From positions 1,015,569 to 1,079,568 of the forward strand of contig NZ_WBVQ01000002.1 in NCBI RefSeq assembly GCF_008933165.1: a DNA stretch of 64,000 nt, read 5' to 3'. Position numbers and translations under genes: made by a program. The stretch's first letter is position 1. Each line of letters opens with the position of its first letter. This document shows, one piece after another, positions 44,502 through 58,129 of the stretch. The notes under the pieces were generated by a model that did no database searches, had not been told where the DNA came from, and saw nothing but the letters and a program-made list of their open reading frames with translations. The stretch is from Phaeocystidibacter marisrubri (lineage in GTDB: Bacteria; Bacteroidota; Bacteroidia; Flavobacteriales; Schleiferiaceae).

Positions 44502-47057
44502 TTAGAATGTCTTTACTACCAATGCGCGGTTGTCTGCCCAAACACGAACTACAAGTGGTCCATTAACAGGAGCAGTTAGTCTGCCTTCACCCGCGCTGAA
44601 TTGAACATGGTCTGAAACAACCACTCTGCCGGTCATGTCCATGATTTCTACATGGTGACTTCCATTGAGTTCGCTTCCTTTCAATACCAATTGTCCATTG
44701 TTTCTAAAAGCATCCAATGGCTCTTCATTCGCGTACTCGATGAGAGATACCGCGTTGTTTGTCATGTGCAAGATGAAGCGTTGCTTTGGAGCATTAATGT
44801 CGTTCGTGAAGGTGTAGGAGGTTGTATTCAAGTCAACAATCATCCCTGTCTCTGTATCTTCTAGGTAAGCATCAATACCATTAGGCAGGTAAGAGTTATC
44901 TAGAGAGATGGTTGCACTTTCTCCATCCGTTGCAAAGTCGAAGGTCAAGTAGATGTCTTCAGTTGGATTAGGGAAAGCGAGCTGGTTGATGGAAAGTGCT
45001 GTGCTATCCGCACTCACCGAACAGAACGAAATTCGATCTGGATTAACGCCTCTGAAGTACGCGTCAAACTCTCCGTCAAAGTTGCTAGACGCATTGTCGT
45101 CGAACAAAATATGCGTGTCTGTAGACTGAGATGCTGTAGTAGCAGTCAAGATCATCTGAGGCTTCACATTCGCAACTTTGCTGAATACGTTGTTGGAAGC
45201 TCCGTCAAAAACCGAAGACTTGCCTCTTGTAAAATTAGCGCTAGCTGCAGCGTTACCTGCTTTGGCAAAGTAGCTGAGCAGTGGAATGATATCGTACTTG
45301 TTCGTCGCTGTACCATTGCTCCAAGAATCATATGCTCCTGAAGCGGGATTCCAGTAGTAAACCGCATTATCAAGTCCTGCTGGCAAATTGTCATCGATGG
45401 TTTCCCAAGAAATGTGACCCCAGAATGGGTTCTTCACCATATTCCAGCCTGCGTTGTCTGCAGGATTACCCGAAGCCCAACCCACAGCGGCATTCACCGG
45501 AACTGAAGTTGGAACGTGATAGCGAACTGTATAATCGTTATCACCGTTTACAACGTCGGCATCCATATCGTCTGCCACGTATGCAAGATTGATTGTCGTA
45601 GGGATCACACTTGCAGGCATGTACACGGTGAAAGCAGAATCTCCAAAATCAGAGGTTGCTTTCGTGTAAAACCACCCAGAGCGAGATGCATCCCAACGAT
45701 AAATATTTCTGTTTGCTCCTGTGAATTCCAAAGCCATGGAATTATTAAAGCTCACTTTATCAAACGTGATAGACCCCGGAGCACTGAGGTGGTGCCAACC
45801 TGCATTGGCAAAATGCATTTGAGCATTGATCGTACCTGTACCTTGTATCAATTGATCGCCGTCTCCATGAAGACCTAAAGTGGAGAAACCTGTAGCATCC
45901 GCAGCCAAAGTCATGGTTCCGTCTACAATGAGGTTGCCTTCAAAATCCAAGTGAGCGCCTGCTTGAATATTGGCAATTCCACCTGCATCAACATCAAAAT
46001 CACCACCTAGATAAACCGACGCGGTTCCATTCATCTCGAATACCCCCGCATTGGTCACTTGAATTCCGTAAACCGTTTGGATAACACTTCCTGCGCCTGC
46101 TGTAACAGTGGTTGGAGTAGACCCATCACCTACAACAATACCCGCGATATCCAAAGTATCTCCACTTGCCAAAGCGTAAGAAGTTGTCACCACCACCACT
46201 GTGTGTGTACGGTTAGGATCGATAGCCAGTGTAGTGAAAGCAGGATCTGTATACCAATTCCCATCTGCTGGGTTGTAGTATCGGTTAGAAGGTTGAGGAA
46301 CAATGGATCCCAAACGCAAATCACCAGATGCTGAAATGTCGTTCAAGGTGTAGTTAACATCGAAAAGGTAGTTCGCTGGATTGCCGAGATCTACCAAAAT
46401 ATCATCGATCGTACCGTTGAAGTTAATCAACGAAGGATCTGGGCCGAGGAACTTGTAGTTACTGTTCCCGTTATCAAAGAAGTTGGCAGTAAGACCAGAT
46501 GTCAAACCCCAATTGGAAATTCGTGTAAGGTTGGCTGCTGTTGTAGGTTCAAAAACTGAAACACTGCTACCGCCAAGGCCGTCTGCACCAATACCGTAAA
46601 CAAAACGTGAAGCTTGGGTAGATGTTCCTTGGTACAATATCAAATCGTCACCCCCCTGACCAAATGACAAGGTAAAGGCTCCACCCCATTGGATGTTGGT
46701 AACCTCCGCTGTTGTAACGCTACTTCTAGCAGCCACCAAAGTAGGAACGCCTGACTTGGACGTTAAACCGTTGATGACCCAAGTATCGCCAACATTCAAG
46801 CCATTCGCACCTACAGTGAAAGACAACCATGAGTCTTTCGCGTCTGTATCCAATGTGAATGGAGCAGTAGCAGAAATGCCGTGATCGGTCATATAGACAA
46901 CTTCGCCCGCGTCAATTGGGGCTAAAGCGAGGAACCAAACTTCATCAATGGATTGGCTACTCTCAAAGCCAAGGATAATAATCTCACCTGGGTTCACTTT
47001 GGCCAAGGCAGAAACGCCAAAAGCAAGTGAAAAAATGAGCACGAAAAACTTTTTCAT
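44502..47057 (-). CDS. Large secreted T9SS cargo protein
   Basis: This 851-residue protein has a signal peptide (MKKFFVLIFSLAFGVSALA) and a first domain (about 22-190) of the type GEIIILGFESSQSIDEVWF...GEVVYMTDHG, seen in other secreted Bacteroidota proteins. Then comes a beta-rich middle with GAGSVIQTVYGIQVTNAGVF and similar strands (about 290-400), like a pectin-lyase-type or head domain. The end (LVLKGSELNGSHHVEIMDMT ... RALVVKTF) looks like a T9SS type A sorting domain, although the usual YPNP is replaced by FPNPTED at about residue 690. No enzyme motif is seen. Its operon partner is the PID-CTERM-like gene. Confidence 0.8.
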   Translation of the reverse strand: MKKFFVLIFSLAFGVSALAKVNPGEIIILGFESSQSIDEVWFLALAPIDAGEVVYMTDHGISATAPFTLDTDAKDSWLSFTVGANGLNVGDTWVINGLTSKSGVPTLVAARSSVTTAEVTNIQWGGAFTLSFGQGGDDLILYQGTSTQASRFVYGIGADGLGGSSVSVFEPTTAANLTRISNWGLTSGLTANFFDNGNSNYKFLGPDPSLINFNGTIDDILVDLGNPANYLFDVNYTLNDISASGDLRLGSIVPQPSNRYYNPADGNWYTDPAFTTLAIDPNRTHTVVVVTTSYALASGDTLDIAGIVVGDGSTPTTVTAGAGSVIQTVYGIQVTNAGVFEMNGTASVYLGGDFDVDAGGIANIQAGAHLDFEGNLIVDGTMTLAADATGFSTLGLHGDGDQLIQGTGTINAQMHFANAGWHHLSAPGSITFDKVSFNNSMALEFTGANRNIYRWDASRSGWFYTKATSDFGDSAFTVYMPASVIPTTINLAYVADDMDADVVNGDNDYTVRYHVPTSVPVNAAVGWASGNPADNAGWNMVKNPFWGHISWETIDDNLPAGLDNAVYYWNPASGAYDSWSNGTATNKYDIIPLLSYFAKAGNAAASANFTRGKSSVFDGASNNVFSKVANVKPQMILTATTASQSTDTHILFDDNASSNFDGEFDAYFRGVNPDRISFCSVSADSTALSINQLAFPNPTEDIYLTFDFATDGESATISLDNSYLPNGIDAYLEDTETGMIVDLNTTSYTFTNDINAPKQRFILHMTNNAVSLIEYANEEPLDAFRNNGQLVLKGSELNGSHHVEIMDMTGRVVVSDHVQFSAGEGRLTAPVNGPLVVRVWADNRALVVKTF

Positions 47058-47315: not shown

Positions 47316-48461
47316 TTACTCGTCGTACGACACAACAACCTTCTCTGAGGTTGGGTGACTTTGGCAAGTGAGAATATATCCCTCTTCCACTTCTTCGTCG
47401 GTGAGTGCATAGTTCATTTCCATTTGAACCGTTCCTTCCAAAACCTTAGCTCTACAGGTACAACAAACGGCACCTTTACAAGCGTATGGAACATCTGCAC
47501 CTGCATCCAACGCAGAATCAATGATGGTCTTGCCTTTGGTAGAAACCTCCATATGCGTTTCGTCACCGTCAAGAATAACGGTAACAGAACTCAAGATATC
47601 TCCAGTAGCTGCGGAGGTATCTGCACTTTGTGGTTTGTTGGTAGTCTCTGCAGAAGAAGTAAAGAGTTCAAAGTGAACCTTGCTTTTTGGCACTCCCAAG
47701 TCTGCCAAGGCCTTTTCTGAAGCGTGAATGATTTCTTCCGGACCACACAAGAAATACGCTTCTGTTTGATCGAGATCAAAGAACTTATCGGCAAAGGCCT
47801 TCACTTTTGCTTCATCGAGACGACCTTTCATCAAATCGCTACCTTGATCTTCACGACTCAACACGTGATGAACTTCAAGCCGGTTCATGTAGGCGTCTTT
47901 CAAATCCTCGATTTCATCCTTAAAGATAACCGAAGCACTATTGCGGTTGCCATAGATCAAAATGAACTTGCTTTCTGGCTCCGTTTTCAAAGCCGTTTTA
48001 ATCAAACTCATGACCGGTGTAATACCAGAACCCGCAGCAATGGCCACATATTGTTTTGGTCGATCTGCAACAAACTCAGTCGTGAAATTCCCGATGGGCG
48101 TCATCACATCTAATTCCATTCCCTCTTTCAGTTCCGTATTGGCATAGGTGGAGAACACCCCTCCTTCTACACGCTTGATAGCCACACGAAGTTCACCGTC
48201 AAATGGGCTTGAACAGATGGAGTAGGATCTGCGAACATCTTCACCATTAAGGGTGGTGCGCAGGGTAACATACTGACCAGGTTTGAAGTGGTAAAAGTTC
48301 TCCACATCAGCTGGAAGATCAAATGCTACAGAAACACAATCTGTAGTTTCTCTTCTCACATCACTTACCACCAACTTGTGGAACTTTGGAGTGTGACGTT
48401 CGTTCGATTTATCGATAAGCGAAGAAGTGGATTCCTTCTTGCGGGAAAAGAATTTCAACAT
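47316..48461 (-). CDS. paaE: Phenylacetyl-CoA epoxidase reductase subunit PaaE
   Basis: PaaE passes electrons from NADPH through FAD and a [2Fe-2S] centre to the di-iron PaaA. The 381-residue protein has the FAD domain (FKPGQYVTLRT, RRSYSICSSP, about 60-90), the NAD domain (AIAAGSGITPVMSLI, about 147-161; LIYGNRNSASVIF) and a C-terminal plant-type ferredoxin with CKGAVCCTCRAKV (about 335-347) and a later ILTCQSHP. I chose the ATG at 48461; a TTG four codons upstream is possible. It is encoded divergently from paaABC, with the shared control region at 48462-48721. Confidence 0.92.
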   Translation of the reverse strand: MLKFFSRKKESTSSLIDKSNERHTPKFHKLVVSDVRRETTDCVSVAFDLPADVENFYHFKPGQYVTLRTTLNGEDVRRSYSICSSPFDGELRVAIKRVEGGVFSTYANTELKEGMELDVMTPIGNFTTEFVADRPKQYVAIAAGSGITPVMSLIKTALKTEPESKFILIYGNRNSASVIFKDEIEDLKDAYMNRLEVHHVLSREDQGSDLMKGRLDEAKVKAFADKFFDLDQTEAYFLCGPEEIIHASEKALADLGVPKSKVHFELFTSSAETTNKPQSADTSAATGDILSSVTVILDGDETHMEVSTKGKTIIDSALDAGADVPYACKGAVCCTCRAKVLEGTVQMEMNYALTDEEVEEGYILTCQSHPTSEKVVVSYDE

Positions 48462-48691
48462 GAGCCTTTTCAATTGAAAGTCCGTAGACTATCTGAATAG
48501 TTATTTCGCTACAAAAGTAGCACTTTGAATGTAAGAACCTTTCTCTTGGGAGTGGATTCATATCAAACCCAAGAAAACCCATGTTCCAAAACACTTCTCC
48601 ATGAATTGTTGTTTAGCGATAAGATGTTAGGCTCAATCACTTCTAAGTCTATATAGAGTGATTCCAAGCTGACTCTTCGATTGAACTTTCG

Positions 48692-48699
48692 TACATTTG
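48692..48699 (+). promoter_or_regulatory. Putative -7 box for paaABC
   Basis: TACATTTG fits TANNTTTG and lies 22 bases before the paaA ATG, in the paaE/paaA divergent region. I found no clear inverted-repeat operator. Confidence 0.45.
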
Positions 48700-48721
48700 A
48701 GCACGCAAAATCGCTTATCCC

Positions 48722-49672
48722 ATGGGTGAAACGCATTCATTAGAAGAAAGATTTCAGGCGTATGTAGACGCCGAAAACAAGGTAGAACCAAAAGATTGGA
48801 TGCCTGAGAAATACCGCAAGACGCTTATTCGTCAGATTTCTCAGCATGCCCATTCTGAAGTAGTTGGCATGTTACCAGAAGCAAACTGGATTACACGTGC
48901 TCCATCTCTTCGTTCTAAGTTGATTCTACTCGCTAAAGTACAAGACGAAGCAGGTCATGGATTGTATCTCTACAGCGCCGCAGAAACGCTAGGCGCCGAT
49001 AGAGAAGACATGATCAAGGACCTTCTTTCGGGCAAAGCCAAGTATTCCTCTATCTTCAACTATCCAACTATTTCTTGGGCGGATATGGGAGCTATTGGAT
49101 GGTTGGTTGACGGTGCTGCCATTGCCAACCAAGTCATGTTGTGCCGTACCAGCTATGGACCTTATGCACGTGCCATGGTGCGCATCTGTAAAGAAGAGAG
49201 TTTCCACCAACGCCAGGGTTACGAGATTATGATGCAATTGGCCAGAGGTTCCGAAGAACAGAAGGCAATGGCACAAGACGCTCTCAACCGTTGGTGGTGG
49301 CCATCTATTATGATGTTTGGACCGCGCGACGAAGATTCTCCAAACTCGGCTCAAAGCATGAAATGGAAAATCAAGCGAAAGTCGAACGACGAACTTCGTC
49401 AGGAGTTTATCGATAAAACCGTTCCTCAAGCGGAGTTCATTGGCCTTACTATCCCGGACCCAGACTTGAAGTGGAACGAAGAAAAAGGTCAGTACGACTA
49501 CGGCGAGATCAATTGGGAGGAATTCTACCAAGTGATTAAAGGCAATGGCCCGTGTAATGCACAGCGCCTAGCTGCCCGCCAAAAAGCCTACGATGATGGC
49601 AAGTGGATTCGCGAAGCAGCGAATGCCTACGCAGAAAAAGAGAGCAAACGCAAAGCTGAAAAAGTAGCTTGA
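48722..49672 (+). CDS. paaA: Phenylacetyl-CoA epoxidase catalytic subunit PaaA
   Basis: PaaA is the di-iron monooxygenase subunit that converts phenylacetyl-CoA to its 1,2-epoxide. The 316-residue protein shows the ferritin-like ligands in [17 protein letters not shown] (about 78-94) and [19 protein letters not shown] (about 157-175), and the family blocks [10 protein letters not shown]-like ([13 protein letters not shown]), [14 protein letters not shown] and [12 protein letters not shown]. The length is as in known PaaA. paaB follows 19 bases later and paaC 20 bases after that, forming a compact operon. Confidence 0.96.
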
Positions 49673-49691
49673 TCTAATACCCGCCCTACAC

Positions 49692-49982
49692 ATGAGCGAC
49701 AAGAGCAACTGGAAAATCTGGGAAGTATTCATCCGTAGCAAAAACGGATTGAGTCACAAACACGCTGGTAGCCTACATGCACCTGATGCAGAAATGGCGA
49801 TTAAAAATGCCCGCGACGTTTACACCCGAAGAAGCGAAGGAGTGAGCATTTGGGTTGTCCCAAGTGAAGCGATCACCGCTTCAAGTCCAGATGAAAAAGA
49901 ACCATTGTTCGCCCCATCCGACGACAAAGTTTACCGTCACCCTACGTTCTACGAAATTCCCGACGAAGTAGGTCACATGTAA
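49692..49982 (+). CDS. paaB: Phenylacetyl-CoA epoxidase subunit PaaB
   Basis: PaaB is a small subunit that bridges PaaA-PaaC dimers in the epoxidase complex. The 96-residue protein has WEVFIRSKNGLSHKHAGSLHA (about 9-29), MAIKNARDVYTRRSEGVSIWVVPS and the C-terminal YRHPTFYEIPDEVGHM, all characteristic. The length is normal. It lies between paaA and paaC in the operon. Confidence 0.96.
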   Translation: MSDKSNWKIWEVFIRSKNGLSHKHAGSLHAPDAEMAIKNARDVYTRRSEGVSIWVVPSEAITASSPDEKEPLFAPSDDKVYRHPTFYEIPDEVGHM

Positions 49983-50002
49983 ACCCCCGCAAAGGCTCAA
50001 CA

Positions 50003-50758
50003 ATGAACAATTCCGATCTATACGAATACACCCTACGTCTCGGTGATACCGCTTTGATTCTTGGTCAGAGACTTTCTGAATGGTGTGGCCACGGCCCCGT
50101 TCTAGAACAAGATATCGCATTGACGAATATTGCGCTTGATCAAATTGGTCAAGCTCGTCAGTTTTTACAGTACGCAGCTGAGTTAAAAGGAGGCGACACT
50201 ACTGAAGATTCGCTCGCATATCACCGCGATGCTCATCAGTTCAGAAACCTTCTTTTGGTGGAGCAGGACAACGGCCATTGGGGCGATACACTCGCTCGCC
50301 AGTTCTTCTTTGACACCTACAACTACTTCCTTTTTGAAAGGTTGATGAAGTCATCCGACGAGCGCATTTCATCGATTGCTCAAAAGGCTATGAAAGAAAT
50401 TACCTACCATGCACAGTGGAGTGCGGAGTGGATTATCCGCTTAGGTGATGGCACGGAAGAAAGTCACGATAAAATCCAGAAATCCATCAACGATATTTGG
50501 ATGTGGACGGGTGAAATGCTAGAGGCAGACGAATTAGATCTTCGCATGCACGAAGCTGGTATTGGAGTAGACCTTACGGAAGTGACTGCACTTTGGAATG
50601 ATAAGGTGGATGAAATTCTCAAGCTTGCGACGCTTGAAAAACCGGAATCTGCACAACATCAAAGAGGCGGAAAACGAGGAGTACACTCAGAAAAATTGGG
50701 ATACGTGCTTGCCGAAATGCAACACATTCCCAAGTCTTATCCAAATTCTAAGTGGTGA
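50003..50758 (+). CDS. paaC: Phenylacetyl-CoA epoxidase structural subunit PaaC
   Basis: PaaC is the ferritin-like partner of PaaA without its own active iron centre. The 251-residue protein has LRLGDTALILGQRLSEWCGHGP (about 11-32), EDIALTNIALDQIGQARQFL-like sequence (EQDIALTNIALDQIG), FDTYNYFLFERL and AMKEITYHAQWSAEWIIRLGDGT, all PaaC blocks. The gene ends one base before the stop of the convergent regulator-like gene, so paaD is not part of this operon, unlike the usual paaABCDE order. Confidence 0.95.
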   Translation: MNNSDLYEYTLRLGDTALILGQRLSEWCGHGPVLEQDIALTNIALDQIGQARQFLQYAAELKGGDTTEDSLAYHRDAHQFRNLLLVEQDNGHWGDTLARQFFFDTYNYFLFERLMKSSDERISSIAQKAMKEITYHAQWSAEWIIRLGDGTEESHDKIQKSINDIWMWTGEMLEADELDLRMHEAGIGVDLTEVTALWNDKVDEILKLATLEKPESAQHQRGGKRGVHSEKLGYVLAEMQHIPKSYPNSKW

Positions 50759-50759
50759 T

Positions 50760-52148
50760 TCACTGCGTAAAGTGAAGTGAGTCCCTCAACAATCTGAATC
50801 CATCGGGATTGAGTCGGTATACCCGTTCGCGCTTGTCGTGCGGATCCCGTTCTCTCACAATCAACTCTTCTATATTAAGGTGCTCCATAGATCGTCTATT
50901 GAGCTCCTTAATGAGGTTGTTTCTCCATTTTCGCTGATTGTCCCACGATTTATCTTCCCATCCCATAATTTGGGTGATCGGTCCAGATTTCAACCCTTCT
51001 CCTCGCATTTCCGACCTGAGCAGTGCCCGGAGTAAGGTTACTTCTAATTGATCTAGGGAATTGAAGAAGGCTTCTTCGGCCTGAACGGTTGCCCCTTTCA
51101 CAAAGGGTTGCTTCAATTTCTTGTAGGCTCGGATGAGCATATAGATGAATAACCCAAAACCGAGGGTCATCAGCAACCAAACCCACCAAGCCCATCCTTC
51201 ACGGTACACCGCTGTGGGCTGCCTTCTAGCATTGATAAAGTCAGAGTAACGGTAAATGAACCCAACACTTTTATCCAGATTGCTGGAAGTGGGAATCATG
51301 TAGTTGTATAAGGCCTCACTTGTTGTGAAGTGACCATTCCCATTAAACTCATCGGTATTTGGAGTAAGCCTAGCGTCGCAAATCGATGGATCAATGTAAT
51401 CCATTCTGTTGTTGACTAAATCAATCAGAACGCGTTTCTCCCCCGCAACAAAATATCCAATAGGCAATGGTACAGATGGCGTATTCAGTTTTAAAACCTC
51501 AGTAACCTCATCACTTAACGTCCCCAATTCCTGCCACTTTTTGCTGCGCAGGTTCAATTTCCACAGCTTGGTAGAGCGCTCCTTTTCTGCTCCGTTCACC
51601 TCACTGGACCACGACACGTACAAGTTCAACCTCGACTCATCCCATTGATACAGGTGGCTGGCTATGCTCTCTGGACCTCCAACTGTGGGGAGAATCTCCC
51701 ACTCTTTGGATTCTGGACGGAAGTAAGTGAGAATGGCGTTCGTGTGCCAGAATCCATATCCTCCCAGAGAAAAAAGAGTATCGTTGGAATACCATTGGAT
51801 GGCATTGAAGTTATAGCCGCGATAGTACGTCTTGTCTACACGTCTAAAGGTGGACGCTAAAGTATCGAGAACGTAAACTTGTTGGGTTCCTTCACCCGTA
51901 AAATGGATAGGATCACTACCGGGTATGTAGTTCAACTTCATCCGAGAACGGAAATCAGCACGCTCAATTCCTTCAAACTGCAGCGTGTCTACCACTTTCC
52001 ATTCGCCAGACGACCATTCTTGTAGGGTGGAATCGCCCGAAATAGAATACACGTGATTGGAATGCAGCCATTCAATAGATGGCCACGTTTGAGCTTCACA
52101 AAGTGCTGAAAACCCAATGAATAAACTGATATTCAATAGAAACTTCAC
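50760..52148 (-). CDS. Membrane-anchored putative regulator: periplasmic propeller plus cytoplasmic winged-helix-like domain
   Basis: This 462-residue protein starts, from a GTG, with a signal peptide (KFLLNISLFIGFSALCEAQ). Its large extracytoplasmic part (about 21-315) has Kelch-like beta-propeller features (LFSLGGYGFWHTNAILTYF, STKLWKLNLRSKKWQELGT). One membrane helix (about 318-339, WWVWLLMTLGFGLFIYMLI) leads to a 123-residue cytoplasmic domain with LDQLEVTLLRALL, ITQIMGWEDKSWDNQRKWRNN and a beta-hairpin-like RVYRLNPDGF, which reads like a winged helix. This would be a one-component, membrane-bound regulator, but the DNA-binding claim is inference. It lies downstream of paaD on the same strand and converges with paaC. 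The in-frame TTG at 52187 would add 13 residues before the signal. Confidence 0.6.
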   Translation of the reverse strand: MKFLLNISLFIGFSALCEAQTWPSIEWLHSNHVYSISGDSTLQEWSSGEWKVVDTLQFEGIERADFRSRMKLNYIPGSDPIHFTGEGTQQVYVLDTLASTFRRVDKTYYRGYNFNAIQWYSNDTLFSLGGYGFWHTNAILTYFRPESKEWEILPTVGGPESIASHLYQWDESRLNLYVSWSSEVNGAEKERSTKLWKLNLRSKKWQELGTLSDEVTEVLKLNTPSVPLPIGYFVAGEKRVLIDLVNNRMDYIDPSICDARLTPNTDEFNGNGHFTTSEALYNYMIPTSSNLDKSVGFIYRYSDFINARRQPTAVYREGWAWWVWLLMTLGFGLFIYMLIRAYKKLKQPFVKGATVQAEEAFFNSLDQLEVTLLRALLRSEMRGEGLKSGPITQIMGWEDKSWDNQRKWRNNLIKELNRRSMEHLNIEELIVRERDPHDKRERVYRLNPDGFRLLRDSLHFTQ

Positions 52149-52274
52149 GATACGTGAAAATAGCGGAAAACCTGCTTCCAGACTCAATTTTGCAGAAAAA
52201 GTTATAGAATCCCCGAAAGTTTGCAGACTTTCGAAGAAGAGGAGTCATAGAGAGATGTTTCCTCCAATTAACCT

Positions 52275-52305
52275 AAGTGAATGAGCGCCGCTTTGCGGGG
52301 CTCAT
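52275..52305 (-). terminator. Hairpin after paaD
   Basis: AATGAGC pairs with GCTCATT around a second stem (CCGC/GCGG), just past the paaD stop. The T-run is weak, so read-through into the regulator-like gene is possible. Confidence 0.4.
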
Positions 52306-52311
52306 TTACAT

Positions 52312-52797
52312 TTAGAGGCATTTGAAATAATCGAAGGGCTCCTTACAGTCGTTGCATTGATACAACGCCTTGCAAGCCGTAGACCCAAACTGACTTATTC
52401 GGCTTGTATTTTCAGACTTACACTGAGGGCAGCGAACAGTGGGCTGGGCACCAAACAAGGCGCGCTTATCTGCTGATTCATCCACTGGAGGTGCAATTCC
52501 GTACTCTTCCAATTTTCTCCTTCCATCTTCCGAAAGCCAATCCGTTGTCCATGCCGGACTAAGAACCTCTTTCACAAACACCTCATCTACACCTTCAGCT
52601 TTGAGCCTTTTCACAATGTCGTTAGCGATCACATCCATGGCCGGACAGCCCGTGTACGTTGGGGTTATATCAATGTGAAGAGCCTCCCCTTCCCAGTGAA
52701 TTCGACGAACCACTCCCATATCGAGAATCGTGAGAACTGGAATTTCTGGATCGGTCACATCCTGGAGGAAACCGCGAATTTCTTCTTCTGAAAACAT
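52312..52797 (-). CDS. paaD: Phenylacetyl-CoA epoxidase maturation protein PaaD
   Basis: PaaD is needed for epoxidase activity, probably in Fe-S or metal-centre assembly. The 161-residue protein has an N-terminal MIP18/DUF59 domain (TDPEIPVLTILDMGVVRRI, about 14-32; ITPTYTGCPAMDVI) and a C-terminal zinc ribbon (CPQCKSENTS, CKALYQCNDCKEPFDYFKC). The length and both halves match PaaD. It is unusual that it is encoded on the opposite strand to paaABC, with the regulator-like gene between. A TACCTTTG box ends four bases before its ATG. Confidence 0.93.
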   Translation of the reverse strand: MFSEEEIRGFLQDVTDPEIPVLTILDMGVVRRIHWEGEALHIDITPTYTGCPAMDVIANDIVKRLKAEGVDEVFVKEVLSPAWTTDWLSEDGRRKLEEYGIAPPVDESADKRALFGAQPTVRCPQCKSENTSRISQFGSTACKALYQCNDCKEPFDYFKCL

Positions 52798-52801
52798 ATA
52801 T

Positions 52802-52809
52802 CAAAGGTA
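52802..52809 (-). promoter_or_regulatory. Putative -7 box abutting the paaD start
   Basis: On the minus strand TACCTTTG fits TANNTTTG and is separated from the paaD ATG by only four bases (ATAT), which would give a leaderless or nearly leaderless mRNA. Confidence 0.45.
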
Positions 52810-53003
52810 CCATGATTCAACTAAAAACCACCTGATCGACAGCATCCTTTAGAGAAAATGCCGAACTTTTCTGTGCCCAATAGTCTTACTACACACAGAT
52901 ACCCATCTCCAAAAATCTAATGATCAACCCTAGCCGAAGATTGGAAAAGCGATCGCTTTTGAACTCAACGCTTGATTGGAGTAGTGAAACGTAACATCTT
53001 CAC

Positions 53004-53011
53004 TATCTTCG
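53004..53011 (+). promoter_or_regulatory. Putative -7 box for paaG-paaH
   Basis: TATCTTCG (one change from TANNTTTG) lies 16 bases before the paaG ATG. Confidence 0.3.
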
Positions 53012-53027
53012 GCGCAAATACCCACAT

Positions 53028-53804
53028 ATGTCATACATACAGCAAGAATTCTCTCAGGGAGTGTGCACATTGCGCATGAATCGCCCAGAAAAGTTCAACA
53101 GCTTTGTACGCGATATGGCCATGGATCTTCAAGTAAAATTGGACGAAGCGGCCGCAGATGATAGTGTAAGATGTATCGTCCTCACTGGAGTAGGCAAAGC
53201 CTTTTGTGCCGGTCAGGATTTAGCTGAGGCGACAGATCCAAATGGACCTGAACTCTCCAACATTGTGAGCGAACACTATAACCCCATCATCCAAAGAATT
53301 AGACGTATTGAAAAACCCGTTATCGCCGCCGTGAATGGTGTTGCAGCGGGAGCGGGCGCAAACATTGCCCTTGCATGTGATATCGTATTGGCTACAGAAA
53401 GTGCCTCTTTCATACAGGCGTTCTCTAAAATCGGTCTTATTCCAGACAGTGGCGGGACCTTCTTCCTCCCTCGTCTTGTGGGTTGGCAGCGTGCCTCGGC
53501 GCTTATGATGACAGGCGAAAAAGTATCTGCTACAGACGCTGTTTCGATTGGCATGATTTACAAAGCTATTCCTGACGATCAATTTGAAGCATCCGTATTA
53601 GAGATGGCTAATCAACTTGCACAAATGCCTACAAAGGGACTTGGACTTACCAAGCGTGCATTGAATCAAAGCTTTGGCAATAACCTCAGTCAACAGCTAG
53701 ATTTAGAAGACGAGCTACAATCACAAGCAGGCCGAACAGACGATTACGCAGAGGGAACTCGTGCTTTCCTTGAAAAGAGAAAACCTGAATTCAAAGGTCA
53801 CTAA
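53028..53804 (+). CDS. paaG: 1,2-epoxyphenylacetyl-CoA isomerase PaaG
   Basis: This 258-residue crotonase-family enzyme should turn the epoxide into the oxepin-CoA and also shift double bonds later in the path. The blocks are CIVLTGVGKAFCAGQDLAE (about 49-67; oxyanion hole), AAVNGVAAGAGANIALACD (about 103-121) and SKIGLIPDSGGTFFLPRLVG (about 133-152) with the Asp of IPDSGG as the PaaG-type catalytic acid. It is followed directly by paaH, whose ATG touches its stop (TAAATG). A separate PaaF-type hydratase is not present. Confidence 0.92.
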   Translation: MSYIQQEFSQGVCTLRMNRPEKFNSFVRDMAMDLQVKLDEAAADDSVRCIVLTGVGKAFCAGQDLAEATDPNGPELSNIVSEHYNPIIQRIRRIEKPVIAAVNGVAAGAGANIALACDIVLATESASFIQAFSKIGLIPDSGGTFFLPRLVGWQRASALMMTGEKVSATDAVSIGMIYKAIPDDQFEASVLEMANQLAQMPTKGLGLTKRALNQSFGNNLSQQLDLEDELQSQAGRTDDYAEGTRAFLEKRKPEFKGH

Positions 53805-54965
53805 ATGGACAAGATGGAAATTGGCGTCATTGGAGCAGGCGCTATGGGTAATGGCATTGCCCAAATTGCCGCACAAAGCGGTCACGTGGTATATGTATAC
53901 GACACCAAGACCAACGCCCTAGAAAGAGCAGCTTCTAAACTCAAGGCGGTTCTCGATCGCCTTGTTGAGAAAGAAAAAATATCCAACGAAGAAGCAACGG
54001 CCACATATAATAGAGTTCGATACGTAGACTCACTGAGCCCACTAAAAAACGTAGGACTTGTTATTGAAGCCATCATTGAGAACCTCTCTGCAAAACAGAG
54101 CGTGTTCAAGTTGCTTGATGATCTCGTTGCCCCAACCACTGTTCTCGCTTCCAATACCTCTTCACTTAGCATCGCTTCCATTGGAGCTGGAATTGAGAAC
54201 CCCGAGCGCGTTATGGGAATTCATTTCTTCAACCCTGCGCCATTGATGCCGTTGGTAGAAATCGTTCCTTCCATGAGCACGGACATGAAGCTCGTAGAGG
54301 AAATTCGCGCACTCATCAATTCTTGGAAAAAAGTCACCGTACTTGCCAAGGACACCCCGGGGTTCATTGTAAACCGAGTGGCCCGTCCATTCTATTCTGA
54401 AGCCATCAAAATGATGGAAGAAGGAGTAGCCGACATGGCGACCATCGATTGGGCAATGCGCGAAATTGGCGGGTTCCGGATGGGGCCATTTGAACTGACG
54501 GACCTCATTGGTCACGATGTGAATTACGTGGTGACGGAAACCGTTTGGGAACAGTTTTATTACGATCCACGCTTCCGTCCATCCATCAGTCAAAAACGCC
54601 TTGTAGAGGGGCAATTGTTCGGACGCAAGTCGGGCAGAGGTTGGTTCGACTATACAGAGGGCGCTGCAAAGCCAACTCCAGTAGAAGATACTGAACTCGG
54701 TCAAATGATCGTAGATCGAATTGTAGCCATGCTTGTAAACGAAGCCGCTGATGCCCTGCTCTTGGGAATTGGAACCGCAGAAGAAATTGATCTGGCTATG
54801 ACCAAAGGTGTGAACTATCCAAAAGGCCCACTCACTTGGGCCAATGAAATAGGATTGGACGTTGTGTTAGGTCGACTGAACACACTCTTCGAGGAGTATG
54901 GAGACGATCGTTATCGACCATGTGTACTTCTCAAAAGAACAGTAGCCGCTGGCGAGAACTTCTAA
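53805..54965 (+). CDS. paaH: 3-hydroxyacyl-CoA dehydrogenase PaaH
   Basis: PaaH oxidises 3-hydroxyadipyl-CoA to 3-oxoadipyl-CoA with NAD. The 386-residue protein has an N-terminal Rossmann fold (IGVIGAGAMGNGIAQIAAQ, about 6-24), ASNTSSLSI, MGIHFFNPAPLMPLVEIV (about 137-154) with the catalytic His, and DTPGFIVNRVARPF. The C-terminal domain is duplicated, as in longer PaaH proteins. The start touches the paaG stop; a second ATG three codons in is also possible. A hairpin follows the stop. Confidence 0.92.
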   Translation: MDKMEIGVIGAGAMGNGIAQIAAQSGHVVYVYDTKTNALERAASKLKAVLDRLVEKEKISNEEATATYNRVRYVDSLSPLKNVGLVIEAIIENLSAKQSVFKLLDDLVAPTTVLASNTSSLSIASIGAGIENPERVMGIHFFNPAPLMPLVEIVPSMSTDMKLVEEIRALINSWKKVTVLAKDTPGFIVNRVARPFYSEAIKMMEEGVADMATIDWAMREIGGFRMGPFELTDLIGHDVNYVVTETVWEQFYYDPRFRPSISQKRLVEGQLFGRKSGRGWFDYTEGAAKPTPVEDTELGQMIVDRIVAMLVNEAADALLLGIGTAEEIDLAMTKGVNYPKGPLTWANEIGLDVVLGRLNTLFEEYGDDRYRPCVLLKRTVAAGENF

Positions 54966-54973
54966 CCCATCAG

Positions 54974-55007
54974 CAGACCTTTCAATTCAACTGGGTTGGA
55001 AGGTCTG
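54974..55007. terminator. Hairpin after paaH
   Basis: CAGACCTTTC pairs with GAAGGTCTG (one wobble) across a 14-base loop. There is no strong T-run beyond it, so it may be a weak terminator. It is followed by an independent promoter box at 55065. Confidence 0.45.
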
Positions 55008-55064
55008 ATTGGAAAACTTAAAGCGATAAACCCCTCGTTAACAGACGCCTCCCCCCAAACCCCC

Positions 55065-55072
55065 TATCTTTG
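55065..55072 (+). promoter_or_regulatory. Putative -7 box abutting the 55077 gene
   Basis: TATCTTTG fits TANNTTTG and ends four bases (AATT) before the ATG at 55077, implying a leaderless or almost leaderless transcript. Confidence 0.45.
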
Positions 55073-55076
55073 AATT

Positions 55077-55583
55077 ATGCATAACGACGCACTCGAAAGC
55101 GCGATTCGCGAACTCAAACTCACTAGCGAAGCCCAGTGGACTCAAATGTTAGGTGAAGTGATGGATGAGCAACCTCATCTCATGTCTTTCATCATGAATT
55201 TGGCGGACGATTTTTCGGAAGAAGTGCACGAACAACTCATGCGTGCCACGGTGCTTCTTTCCATCGCATTTAAAAAGACCGGCATTCAGATTGAACTCAT
55301 CACGCCCGCAGGACTCGACAAGGTATTAGAAGAAAAGGTTGAAGCCTATGAATCCTTAGCTGAAGGTGAAGATCTGAACCCTGAATTGTTGAGTGAAGTT
55401 GCGAATAGTCCACTCGTTTTTGAGAGAGTTCGTCAGTGGTTTGTTGCCGAGCTTGGTGAATACATGCCACTTCTGGAAGAATCTCAAAACAATATAGGTC
55501 TCCTAGTAGATGTTATTATATCTTCCATGGAGGAATTTGCCGTTGACCCGAACAGCAAAACCAATACACCAACTGATGCCTAG
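55077..55583 (+). CDS. Acidic protein of unknown function in the paa cluster
   Basis: This 168-residue, mostly helical, strongly acidic cytoplasmic protein (MSFIMNLADDFSEEVHEQLM, EKVEAYESLAEGEDLNPELL, VDVIISSMEEFAVD) has no signal peptide, membrane segment or metal motif. I do not recognise the family. It is expressed from its own promoter-like box and overlaps paaI by 8 bases, so it is probably coupled to paaI, the histidine kinase and paaJ. A regulatory or chaperone-like role in phenylacetate metabolism is possible but unsupported. Confidence 0.75.
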   Translation: MHNDALESAIRELKLTSEAQWTQMLGEVMDEQPHLMSFIMNLADDFSEEVHEQLMRATVLLSIAFKKTGIQIELITPAGLDKVLEEKVEAYESLAEGEDLNPELLSEVANSPLVFERVRQWFVAELGEYMPLLEESQNNIGLLVDVIISSMEEFAVDPNSKTNTPTDA

Positions 55584-55998
55584 TAGATCCGAAGCCATTG
55601 TCGATTATATGATGACCAACGACGCTTTTAGTCGATGGTTAGGAATTGAAGTGATATCCGTCCGAGAAGGCGCTGTCACTTTGAAAATGACGGTGAGGGA
55701 TGAAATGACCAATGGCTTCAAGATTGCGCATGGAGGGATTAGCTACAGTCTAGCTGACAGCGCTCTCGCTTTTGCATCGAATGGATATGGCCATCAGGCT
55801 GTGAGTATTGAAACCTCAATCTCGCACACGCGACCAGTTTTTGGAGGCGATGTGTTGACCGCCCAAGCGCGAGAGTTAAATCGTTCTAAACGAATAGGAA
55901 TCTACGAAATCACCGTCACCAACCAAAAGAATGAAACAGTAGGACTTTTTAAAGGCACCGTTTTCATTCGACCCGAAGAATGGCCAACCAATCTCTAA
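55576..55998 (+). CDS. paaI: Hotdog-fold thioesterase PaaI
   Basis: PaaI hydrolyses aberrant aryl-CoA or ring-hydroxylated CoA thioesters, freeing CoA in the phenylacetate path. The 140-residue protein has WLGIEVISVREGAVTLKM (about 20-37), NGFKIAHGGISYSLADSALA (about 44-63; Gly-Gly and Asp of the hotdog active site) and SIETSISHTRPVFGGD. The ATG at 55576 was chosen because the hotdog domain starts right after it; the longer frame starts inside the preceding gene. It overlaps the histidine-kinase gene by 19 bases. Confidence 0.92.
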   Translation: MPSRSEAIVDYMMTNDAFSRWLGIEVISVREGAVTLKMTVRDEMTNGFKIAHGGISYSLADSALAFASNGYGHQAVSIETSISHTRPVFGGDVLTAQARELNRSKRIGIYEITVTNQKNETVGLFKGTVFIRPEEWPTNL

Positions 55999-56903
55999 GC
56001 ACACCGAATTCGAAACGAACCTGGCTCAACCCGGGTAAGGCAACCCTATTTACATCCCTGCTTTCCACAGGTGTCTACATTTTGATTTGGATTTTCCCCC
56101 TTCAACTCGATCCAAACGGATGGGTGGGGATTCCCATTTCGGCTTGTATTCCCGTTGTATTGGGTTATCCTCGAATTCGCTACGCCAACAAGTTAATGCG
56201 CGAAGTGGAGGAGCTCAATGAAAGATTGAGTGAACAAAATGTGCTTCGCGAAAAATTACTAGCCATTATTGGTCATGATGTTCGCGGACCACTTGCCAGT
56301 TTAGCGGGACTTGTCGATCTGATGGATTCCGAAGGAATGTCGCCTGCCGAATTTAAAAAGTGGCTAGACAAGGTCCGTCCAGAACTCGAATTCACCAGAG
56401 AAACCCTAGATCGATTGGTGTATTGGGCCAAGCTCCAAATGACAGGCATAGTTGAAGATAAAGAGTTCCGCCTTGGAGAAATCAGGAGCGTTGTTGAAAG
56501 TAACGCCAACCAAATGGCAGCAGGAAGAAACATCGATATAACCTTTGATTGGGATCAGAACACCTTCATTTCGGGAGATCGAATGGCCATTCAAATCACC
56601 TTGAGCAACTTGCTGCACAACGCTGTGAAACACAGTCCAGATAACAGCTCCGTTAGCGTTCGTTCTGAAACTGGAAACAAAGAGATCATGATCCTCATAG
56701 AAGACAGTGGTCAGGGCATTACCCAAAGTGAGTTAAACCAACTGTTTCTAGGGCCTATCGACAAAAACGACCACTACGCTACAGGACTTGGAGTTGGTCT
56801 ATTCCTATGTAAAGAATTTGTGCAAATGAATGGTGGAACCATAACTGCCGAGAATGTGTTAGGTGGGGGTGCCCGATTCTGCATAACTTTGAAGCTCGCT
56901 TAA
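55980..56903 (+). CDS. Membrane-associated sensor histidine kinase
   Basis: This 307-residue protein has two membrane helices near the N-terminus (about 21-40 and 49-64) with almost no periplasmic loop, then a coiled linker. The H box is IIGHDVRGPLASL (phospho-acceptor His99), followed by a HATPase domain with the N box LLHNAVKHS, EDSGQGI and GLGVGLFLCKEF. All key residues are present. No response regulator lies next to it. It is embedded between paaI (19-base overlap) and paaJ (14-base gap), so it should be made together with phenylacetate enzymes and may sense an internal or membrane signal linked to the pathway. Confidence 0.9.
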   Translation: MANQSLSTPNSKRTWLNPGKATLFTSLLSTGVYILIWIFPLQLDPNGWVGIPISACIPVVLGYPRIRYANKLMREVEELNERLSEQNVLREKLLAIIGHDVRGPLASLAGLVDLMDSEGMSPAEFKKWLDKVRPELEFTRETLDRLVYWAKLQMTGIVEDKEFRLGEIRSVVESNANQMAAGRNIDITFDWDQNTFISGDRMAIQITLSNLLHNAVKHSPDNSSVSVRSETGNKEIMILIEDSGQGITQSELNQLFLGPIDKNDHYATGLGVGLFLCKEFVQMNGGTITAENVLGGGARFCITLKLA

Positions 56904-56917
56904 ACCCACATTTTCCC

Positions 56918-58129
56918 ATGAAAGAAGCCTATATCGTAGATGGAATCCGAACAGCCGTAGGCAGTTTTGGAGGAACACTAGCAGCTGTACGAACAGACGA
57001 TTTAGCCGCGCATGTAATTCGCGCCTTGGTTGAAAGACATCCCAACTTAGATAAATCTGCCATTGACGACGTCATCCTTGGCTGTGCCAATCAAGCCGGT
57101 GAAGACAACCGAAATGTTGCAAGAATGGCCTTGCTTTTAGCTGATTTGCCGTGGACAGTTCCCGGAGAAACCGTGAATAGACTTTGCGCCTCAGGTATGA
57201 GTGCTGCCATTCACGCATCTCGGGCTATTGCTCACGGAGATGGTGATCTGTTCATCACGGGAGGAGTTGAAAACATGACTCGCGGCCCTTATGTGATGAG
57301 CAAACCTAGTAAAGCCTATGGTACAGATAGCAAGATGTATGATTCTAGCTTTGGATGGCGCTTTGTCAATCCCAAGATGAAAGAACTGTACGGCACAGAT
57401 GCAATGGGCGAGACGGCGGAGAACTTGGTGGACAAGTACAACATCTCTAGAGAAGATCAAGATGCCTTTGCCCTCCGTTCTCAAATGAAGGCTTCGGAAG
57501 CTCAAAGAAATGGCCGACTTGCCCTTGAAATCACACCTGTGAGCATTCCTCAACGAAAGGCTGATCCTATCGTATTTGAGGCAGATGAATTTGTGAAAAG
57601 CAATTCAACTCTAGACATTCTTGCTAAACTTCGCCCGGCATTTAGACCGAATGGAAGTGTTACCGCAGGAAACAGCTCTGGCCTTAACGACGGTGCAGCA
57701 GCTTTGCTCATAGCCAGTGCCGAAGGTTTGAAAAAGCACAACTTGACTCCAATGGCTAAAATTGTGTCGAGTGGTGTTTCCGGTGTTGAACCGAGAATCA
57801 TGGGTATAGGACCTGTTTACGCTTGTCAAAAAGCACTAGACAAGGCAGGTTTAACTCTGGATGACATGGATATCATCGAGTTGAATGAAGCATTCGCTGC
57901 ACAAGTTTTGGCTTGTACAAGAGAAATGGGTCTTGCCGACGACGATCCGAGAATTAATCCGAATGGTGGTGCCATTGCCATTGGACACCCATTGGGCGTA
58001 ACAGGATCTAGAATTCTTCAAACGGCAGCCCTTGAGCTCATCGCTCAGAAGAAAAGATATGCGTTGGTTTCCATGTGCATCGGCGTTGGCCAAGGCTATG
58101 CTACCATTTTGGAAAATCAACAGCTGTAA
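56918..58129 (+). CDS. paaJ: 3-oxoadipyl-CoA thiolase PaaJ
   Basis: PaaJ cuts 3-oxoadipyl-CoA to acetyl-CoA and succinyl-CoA, the last step of phenylacetate breakdown. The 403-residue protein has catalytic Cys90 in NRLCASGMSA, the Asn-Glu-Ala-Phe motif in LNEAFAAQVLA, GGAIAIGHPLGVTGSR with the catalytic His, and CIGVGQG with the second Cys. The length is normal. Assignment as PaaJ rather than a general thiolase rests on its position. The YdeI-like gene starts three bases after its stop with a GTG. Confidence 0.92.
   Translation: MKEAYIVDGIRTAVGSFGGTLAAVRTDDLAAHVIRALVERHPNLDKSAIDDVILGCANQAGEDNRNVARMALLLADLPWTVPGETVNRLCASGMSAAIHASRAIAHGDGDLFITGGVENMTRGPYVMSKPSKAYGTDSKMYDSSFGWRFVNPKMKELYGTDAMGETAENLVDKYNISREDQDAFALRSQMKASEAQRNGRLALEITPVSIPQRKADPIVFEADEFVKSNSTLDILAKLRPAFRPNGSVTAGNSSGLNDGAAALLIASAEGLKKHNLTPMAKIVSSGVSGVEPRIMGIGPVYACQKALDKAGLTLDDMDIIELNEAFAAQVLACTREMGLADDDPRINPNGGAIAIGHPLGVTGSRILQTAALELIAQKKRYALVSMCIGVGQGYATILENQQL

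Follow-up and report, generated by a model that had tools for sequence, protein, structure and literature searches.

We analysed a 64,000-nucleotide stretch of DNA (the window) from Phaeocystidibacter marisrubri, a member of the family Schleiferiaceae. The species has a 3.35-Mb genome and counts Phaeocystidibacter luteus among its congeners. The window carries a paa cluster for the phenylacetate pathway and, within it, a gene for a candidate membrane regulator. This gene follows paaD, is read in the same direction and is convergent with paaC, from whose end its own end is separated by 1 bp. The genes that define the setting are the following:

47316..48473, minus strand: paaE (TIGR02160, E 4.8e-141)
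48722..49672, plus strand: paaA (TIGR02156, E 5.4e-165)
50003..50758, plus strand: paaC (assigned by position and by homology in paa clusters)
50760..52148, minus strand: candidate membrane-regulator gene (462 aa, GTG start; homologues at 178 genome loci)
52312..52797, minus strand: paaD (TIGR02159, E 1.2e-59)
53028..54965, plus strand: paaG and paaH (in sister genera they follow the regulator gene in one operon)

The wider neighbourhood comprises paaE on the minus strand, paaABC on the plus strand, paaG, paaH, a gene for a 168-aa protein, paaI, a histidine kinase gene and a 3-oxoadipyl-CoA thiolase gene. Altogether paaABCDE, G, H, I and J are present (window 47316-58129), and PaaZ is found at G000:C2:1091112, 11.5 kb beyond the window. 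The 168-aa protein (55077-55583) has no Pfam family; most Schleiferiaceae paa clusters retain it, placed between paaH and paaI. An 851-aa secreted protein with weak matches to BiPBP_C and to a T9SS tail (44502-47057) adjoins paaE, as it does in both congeners. A preliminary description of this DNA had remarked that no TetR-type regulator is encoded in the window, and this holds: TetR_N occurs three times in the genome and nowhere in the window, the nearest occurrence on the contig lying about 45 kb before the window start. TetR candidates beside paa in relatives, genes of about 190 aa beyond paaE, were set aside after inspection by eye, where they look sigma-70-like.

The regulator gene is an open reading frame of 462 codons that runs on the minus strand from GTG 52148 to the stop at 50760, and the frame is kept in two congeners with 55% and 52% identity. 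An alternative start upstream, TTG 52187, would add 13 amino acids; it coincides with the predicted -33 box, and for this reason we set it aside and prefer GTG 52148 as the probable start. Searches with the protein against Pfam, NCBIfam and PDB sequences gave weak matches only, and no Pfam or NCBIfam model covers it. Its layout can be read from hydropathy and structural models (all features on the minus strand):

52092..52148, minus strand: predicted signal peptide, residues 1-19 (VKFLLNISLFIGFSALCEA followed by Q; hydropathy; helix 2-15 in the model)
51234..52079, minus strand: Kelch beta-propeller, residues 24-305 (Kelch structural matches, Z 13.7; Kelch_6 E 1.3e-4, below cut-off)
51126..51194, minus strand: predicted transmembrane helix, residues about 319-341 (hydropathy peak 1.9 at 321; long helix 321-363 in the model)
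50775..51056, minus strand: predicted cytoplasmic winged-helix domain, residues 365-458 (model pLDDT 95; MarR-family structural matches)
50877..50945, minus strand: predicted recognition helix, residues 402-424 (helix in the model; covaries with operator type)
50811..50861, minus strand: predicted wing hairpin, residues 430-446 (D438 and R440 invariant, Y444 nearly invariant)

The AlphaFold model of the full-length protein has a mean pLDDT of 88 (71 sequences). The predicted signal peptide, residues 1-19, is hydrophobic and ends in ALCEA ahead of a Q. Residues 25-312 are all-beta, and the best structural matches of residues 24-305 are Kelch domains, among them LZTR1 (Z 13.7 over 245 residues) and KLHDC2 (Z 13.3); the propeller is thus of Kelch type by structure, while the Kelch_6 score misses the gathering threshold. 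The motif RAYKKLK follows the membrane helix, which would place the helical C-terminal part inside. The resulting topology would put the propeller, on the evidence of signal peptide and charge, in the periplasm, where it may act as the sensor, and a winged helix of about 120 residues in the cytoplasm. AlphaFold, structural matches and hydropathy therefore confirm the arrangement first read from the sequence, namely a signal peptide, a Kelch-like outer region, a single membrane helix and a cytoplasmic helix-turn-helix-like domain.

The cytoplasmic domain, modelled alone from 33 sequences, reaches a pLDDT of 95 and is predicted to have a DNA-binding fold, as the preliminary description had suspected; the fold is a MarR-like winged helix. 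Its best Foldseek matches are MarR proteins and it has the MarR-like core. Against MepR (4ld5) the agreement extends over 78 residues at 2.4 A (VIA Z 10.1), an alignment that covers only MepR 27-104, the DNA-binding core; in the regulator the membrane helix precedes the domain. At the sequence level the MarR models stay below cut-off (HTH_27 E 0.022-0.098; MarR_2 E 0.14) and NCBIfam gives no match, and we therefore speak of a MarR-like fold and do not file the protein as a MarR member. The resemblance of the modelled domain to MarR is a structural one. The motif KSWDNQR (residues 400-406) lies across the start of the recognition helix.

The protein belongs to an unnamed family that is spread through Bacteroidota and is covered by neither Pfam nor NCBIfam. 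Scanning genomes yielded 178 relatives, and the 80 of these that were kept carry titles of Bacteroidota lineages; a domain search detected the C-terminal domain in 18 of 395 sampled Bacteroidota genomes. The inspected domain-search matches begin with a hydrophobic segment and also have a beta region and a membrane helix; the one exception is MarR-like and has the weakest E-value. No NCBIfam model claims family members, and our literature searches found no description of the family. A 71-row alignment contains ten invariant columns; S127, G129, G130, Y131, G132, W134 and W150 are among them and belong to the propeller, as are D438 and R440, which belong to the wing. The propeller signature RxDxT..GYN..SxGGYGFW..EW is common to the whole family. 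At one locus (L130 34-3282) two family members lie within a single continuous open frame of 1223 aa, which may reflect a tandem duplication or a missed stop.

What ties this gene to the paa cluster? In Schleiferiaceae, paaA is present in 81 of 88 genomes and the C-terminal domain of the regulator in 43. The genera g1, g11 and g12 supply 22 genomes with a strong match; in 20 of them the gene is 1.4-3.7 kb from paaA, and in the remaining two the gene and paaA are on separate contigs that break there. In g11 and g12 the genes share a strand in the order paaABC(D)-regulator-paaG-paaH, and the regulator gene overlaps or abuts paaG; in Phaeocystidibacter the regulator gene is inverted relative to these sister genera, and two g11 genomes retain paa without it. 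A quick tree explains the paa-linked members with one state change, though it has open deep forks and long branches that meet. The paa link is real but local to three Schleiferiaceae genera, and taken as a whole the family is not tied to paa. Whether the gene travels with paa, a check proposed in the preliminary description, is thus answered positively for those genera (20 of 22 genomes within 4 kb of paaA) and negatively for the family elsewhere, which has other neighbours: most relatives are away from paa, and the gene precedes a TonB receptor with HmuY, DUF4403, small outer-membrane-like proteins or other genes. In g6, for instance, it lies outside paa and precedes a small outer-membrane-like protein. 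At the Chitinophagaceae-type locus L073 (9626-13959), and in its relatives L054, L083, L088 and L100, it stands before a TonB-dependent receptor and an HmuY protein.

These foreign neighbourhoods speak for a reading in which the protein is a membrane regulator of something other than phenylacetate catabolism, such as an envelope or nutrient signal, and owes its place among the paa genes to inherited synteny without controlling them. The propeller signature shared by all members points the same way, as do the inversion of the window gene with its own promoter and the enzyme content of the genome: TIGR02155, the model for PaaK (phenylacetate-CoA ligase), has no match in the whole genome although PaaZ is present, and phenylacetyl-CoA may therefore come from inside the cell or by another route. 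The absence of a PaaK match argues against simple sensing of external phenylacetate. What weighs against mere inherited synteny is that the g11 and g12 gene runs straight into paaG, in g11 genomes behind the sole operator copy, and that three genera hold the paa position although the proteins are only about 25% identical. On balance we regard a role apart from paa as unlikely. In the sister genera the position of the gene at the head of the paaG-paaH operon points to control of paa genes; nothing points to it directly in Phaeocystidibacter, where the regulator may control paa genes.

The region upstream of the window gene contains three elements:

52277..52309, minus strand: hairpin between paaD and the regulator gene (-16.7 kcal/mol, z -4.5)
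52155..52187, minus strand: predicted promoter (-33-like TTGA at 52184-52187, 21-bp spacer, -7-like TATTTTCA at 52155-52162)
52144..52160, minus strand: operator-like dyad TTTTCACGTATCGTGAA (TTTTCAC-N5-GTGAA), overlapping the predicted -7 box and the start codon

The putative promoter was read from the sequence by comparison with the Bacteroidota consensus TTTG / TAnnTTTG. The hairpin is kept in the two congeners with a different stem sequence, and its stability and conservation suggest that it is likely a terminator, which would give the gene an independent promoter. The dyad is found in all three Phaeocystidibacter genomes, and the regulator gene is the only place where all of them share it; the palindrome-only pattern TTTCACNNNNNGTGAAA has no exact match in the window and a single match with one mismatch, at the regulator gene. 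The paaE/paaA region, once suggested as the target, finds no support: no operator-like repeats were seen there in nine genomes inspected. A further repeat in the window, AGTGAA-N10-TTCACT upstream of paaG, is not conserved in the two congeners and was hence left unused.

Relatives have a more elaborate version of this element. The g11 operator consists of two GTGA half-sites 10 bp apart that face two TCAC half-sites 10 bp apart, and it ends 3 bp before the start codon. The composite pattern GTGA-N5/6-GTGA-N0-25-TCAC-N5/6-TCAC matched 20 times in 2.05 Mb of fetched sequence, in which some loci represent one genome fetched twice, and every match is directly upstream of a family gene; 20 shuffled replicates gave one match in all. 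The pattern was written after a few loci had been viewed, and the loci unseen at that point that match it are L035, L038, L080, L145, L149, L151, L152, L154 and L160. Of 17 relatives searched across their whole genomes, 10 contain the full 41-bp operator, each in exactly one copy; the placed copies are directly before the family gene, and the reversed-pattern control has zero matches. Sphingobacteriaceae use identical half-sites around a central spacer of 2 bp instead of 13 bp, a difference of 11 bp or about one helical turn. The operators are inverted pairs that measure 41 bp or 29 bp. Phaeocystidibacter and g12 lack the full operator and have reduced forms instead.

The operator type changes with the recognition helix. 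Half-sites are present in 18 of the 21 members with a [DE]NQR recognition helix and in 0 of 51 others (Fisher P 3e-14, a value inflated by kinship). In tree contrasts the independent pairs number only three or four, with traits concordant in 2.6 of 3 on average and never opposite, and the P value therefore overstates the case. One of the 18, L050, scores its operator inside the called coding region, where the start has probably been called too far upstream. Other subfamilies have different conserved repeats at their own promoters, as in the Chitinophagaceae-type group of L073 and its four relatives, whose promoter carries the inverted repeat AATAGGTTA...ACCTAT. A Cytophagaceae member with the helix motif KSVENQKQ (L040) has a perfect inverted repeat, AATAGGTTAC-N9-GTAACCTATT, upstream. 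The covariation makes predicted DNA binding at the gene's own promoter well supported, and direct contact would presumably be made by the winged helix.

Beside the computed architecture and fold, the phylum-wide family, the paa synteny in three genera and the conservation of an operator that matches the recognition helix, we place the following model, which we consider probable. The protein would be a single-pass membrane transcription factor whose outer Kelch propeller connects through a single helix with an intracellular winged helix of MarR-like fold that binds an operator at its own promoter and represses its own gene. The winged helix would contact DNA itself, with neither kinase nor phosphorelay in between. 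Assembled in the membrane as a dimer or a larger complex, the protein may lay its winged helices across the operator, over the -33 and -7 boxes, and would then block transcription of its own operon. A signal at the propeller might then alter the arrangement across the single helix so that the promoter is released; both the repression and its relief by ligand are presumptive. In the sister genera the repressed unit would be the regulator-paaG-paaH operon, while in Phaeocystidibacter, where the gene is inverted, the own promoter is the only target to which the evidence points. The one-step sensor and regulator proposed at the outset thus gains support, as a prediction, from the DNA-binding fold and from an own-promoter operator that tracks the recognition helix.

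Might binding activate the promoter rather than silence it? SusR, CadC and ToxR are membrane one-step regulators with external sensors and are mainly activators, and the Sphingobacteriaceae operator, which ends about 50-67 bp upstream of the start, would allow activation there. In g11 and g1, by contrast, the operator lies across both promoter boxes, -33 and -7, and reaches the start codon, a placement that typically goes with repression. Since the operator covers the promoter region, autorepression is the likely mode, and activation seems to us improbable. A less plausible candidate for the Phaeocystidibacter paa regulator, and in our judgement quite an unlikely one, is the membrane-type histidine kinase encoded at 55980-56903. 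It has HisKA and HATPase domains, and all three Phaeocystidibacter genomes carry it among their paa genes; yet its conservation is poor (36-39% identity), the g11 and g12 paa clusters lack it, it has no adjoining response regulator among the genes examined, and it would in any case leave room for a role of the propeller protein. It is very unlikely that the winged helix serves protein-protein contacts instead of DNA binding and that some other regulator occupies the upstream repeats: winged helices can make protein contacts and MukE/MukF are among the weaker structural matches, but the repeat type tracks the recognition-helix sequence and every tested subfamily has its own repeat at the gene's promoter.

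Our preferred reading, autorepression by a membrane-bound winged helix, can be extended tentatively, and with rather less than even confidence, to the family. Its members may form a class of one-protein membrane regulators of Bacteroidota in which the conserved-motif Kelch propeller reads one common kind of signal, for example from the envelope or a peptide, while recognition helix and own-promoter operator vary in step. Every copy would then act as a self-contained switch that serves a single local operon, with one recruitment to paa and others, elsewhere, to haem/TonB uptake. Such a family is predicted to offer a very short route from an outside signal to a promoter. With an operator predicted for each subfamily, sensing, DNA recognition and signal transfer through one helix become directly testable, and the marine Schleiferiaceae group gains a candidate regulator of its phenylacetate pathway.

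How does the regulator compare with known systems? With the MarR family (MepR, OhrR, CouR, NadR) it shares the winged-helix core and a wing with a DxR motif. It departs from that family in that only the DNA-binding core aligns, with no MarR dimerisation part aligned, and in that its sensor would be a propeller across the membrane, whereas the MarR sensor is a pocket in the same fold. The Kelch propellers of KLHDC2 and LZTR1 resemble residues 24-305 in fold (Z about 13) but are only 10-15% identical; they are eukaryotic peptide or protein binders. Bacteroidota are rich in membrane-bound regulators, of which those studied in depth are for the most part hybrid kinases or SusR, and many hybrid two-component sensors are propellers. 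ToxR and CadC carry an OmpR-like DNA-binding domain at the N-terminus and the periplasmic domain at the C-terminus. The regulator has the reverse order, with a Kelch sensor and a C-terminal, MarR-like DNA-binding domain. Transmembrane transcription regulators such as ToxR, TcpP and CadC combine an external sensor, a membrane helix and a cytoplasmic winged helix in one protein, as the regulator does too (PMC10269533). By prediction and by operator covariation, its membrane helix and DNA-binding domain in a single chain would place it among them, and like SusR or CadC it would act as a membrane switch made of one protein. Within its main text, the survey of these proteins records an enrichment in Bacteroidota and leaves Kelch and MarR types unmentioned (PMC10269533). 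Bacteroidota hybrid two-component systems likewise hold an external sensor, a membrane helix and a DNA-binding output in one protein (PMC3878776); the regulator differs in having no kinase, receiver or AraC domain, and a search of the protein with Pfam and NCBIfam found no histidine kinase or receiver domain. The SusR-like regulators of Bacteroides (SusR, BT3705) are similar in their periplasmic ligand-binding part, C-terminal helix-turn-helix, lack of a kinase, restriction to Bacteroidota and linkage to the operon they control (PMC3878776). SusR activates glycan genes from direct-repeat sites with a spacing of 67 or 77 bp (PMC3878776), whereas the operators of the regulator are compact inverted pairs of 29 or 41 bp.
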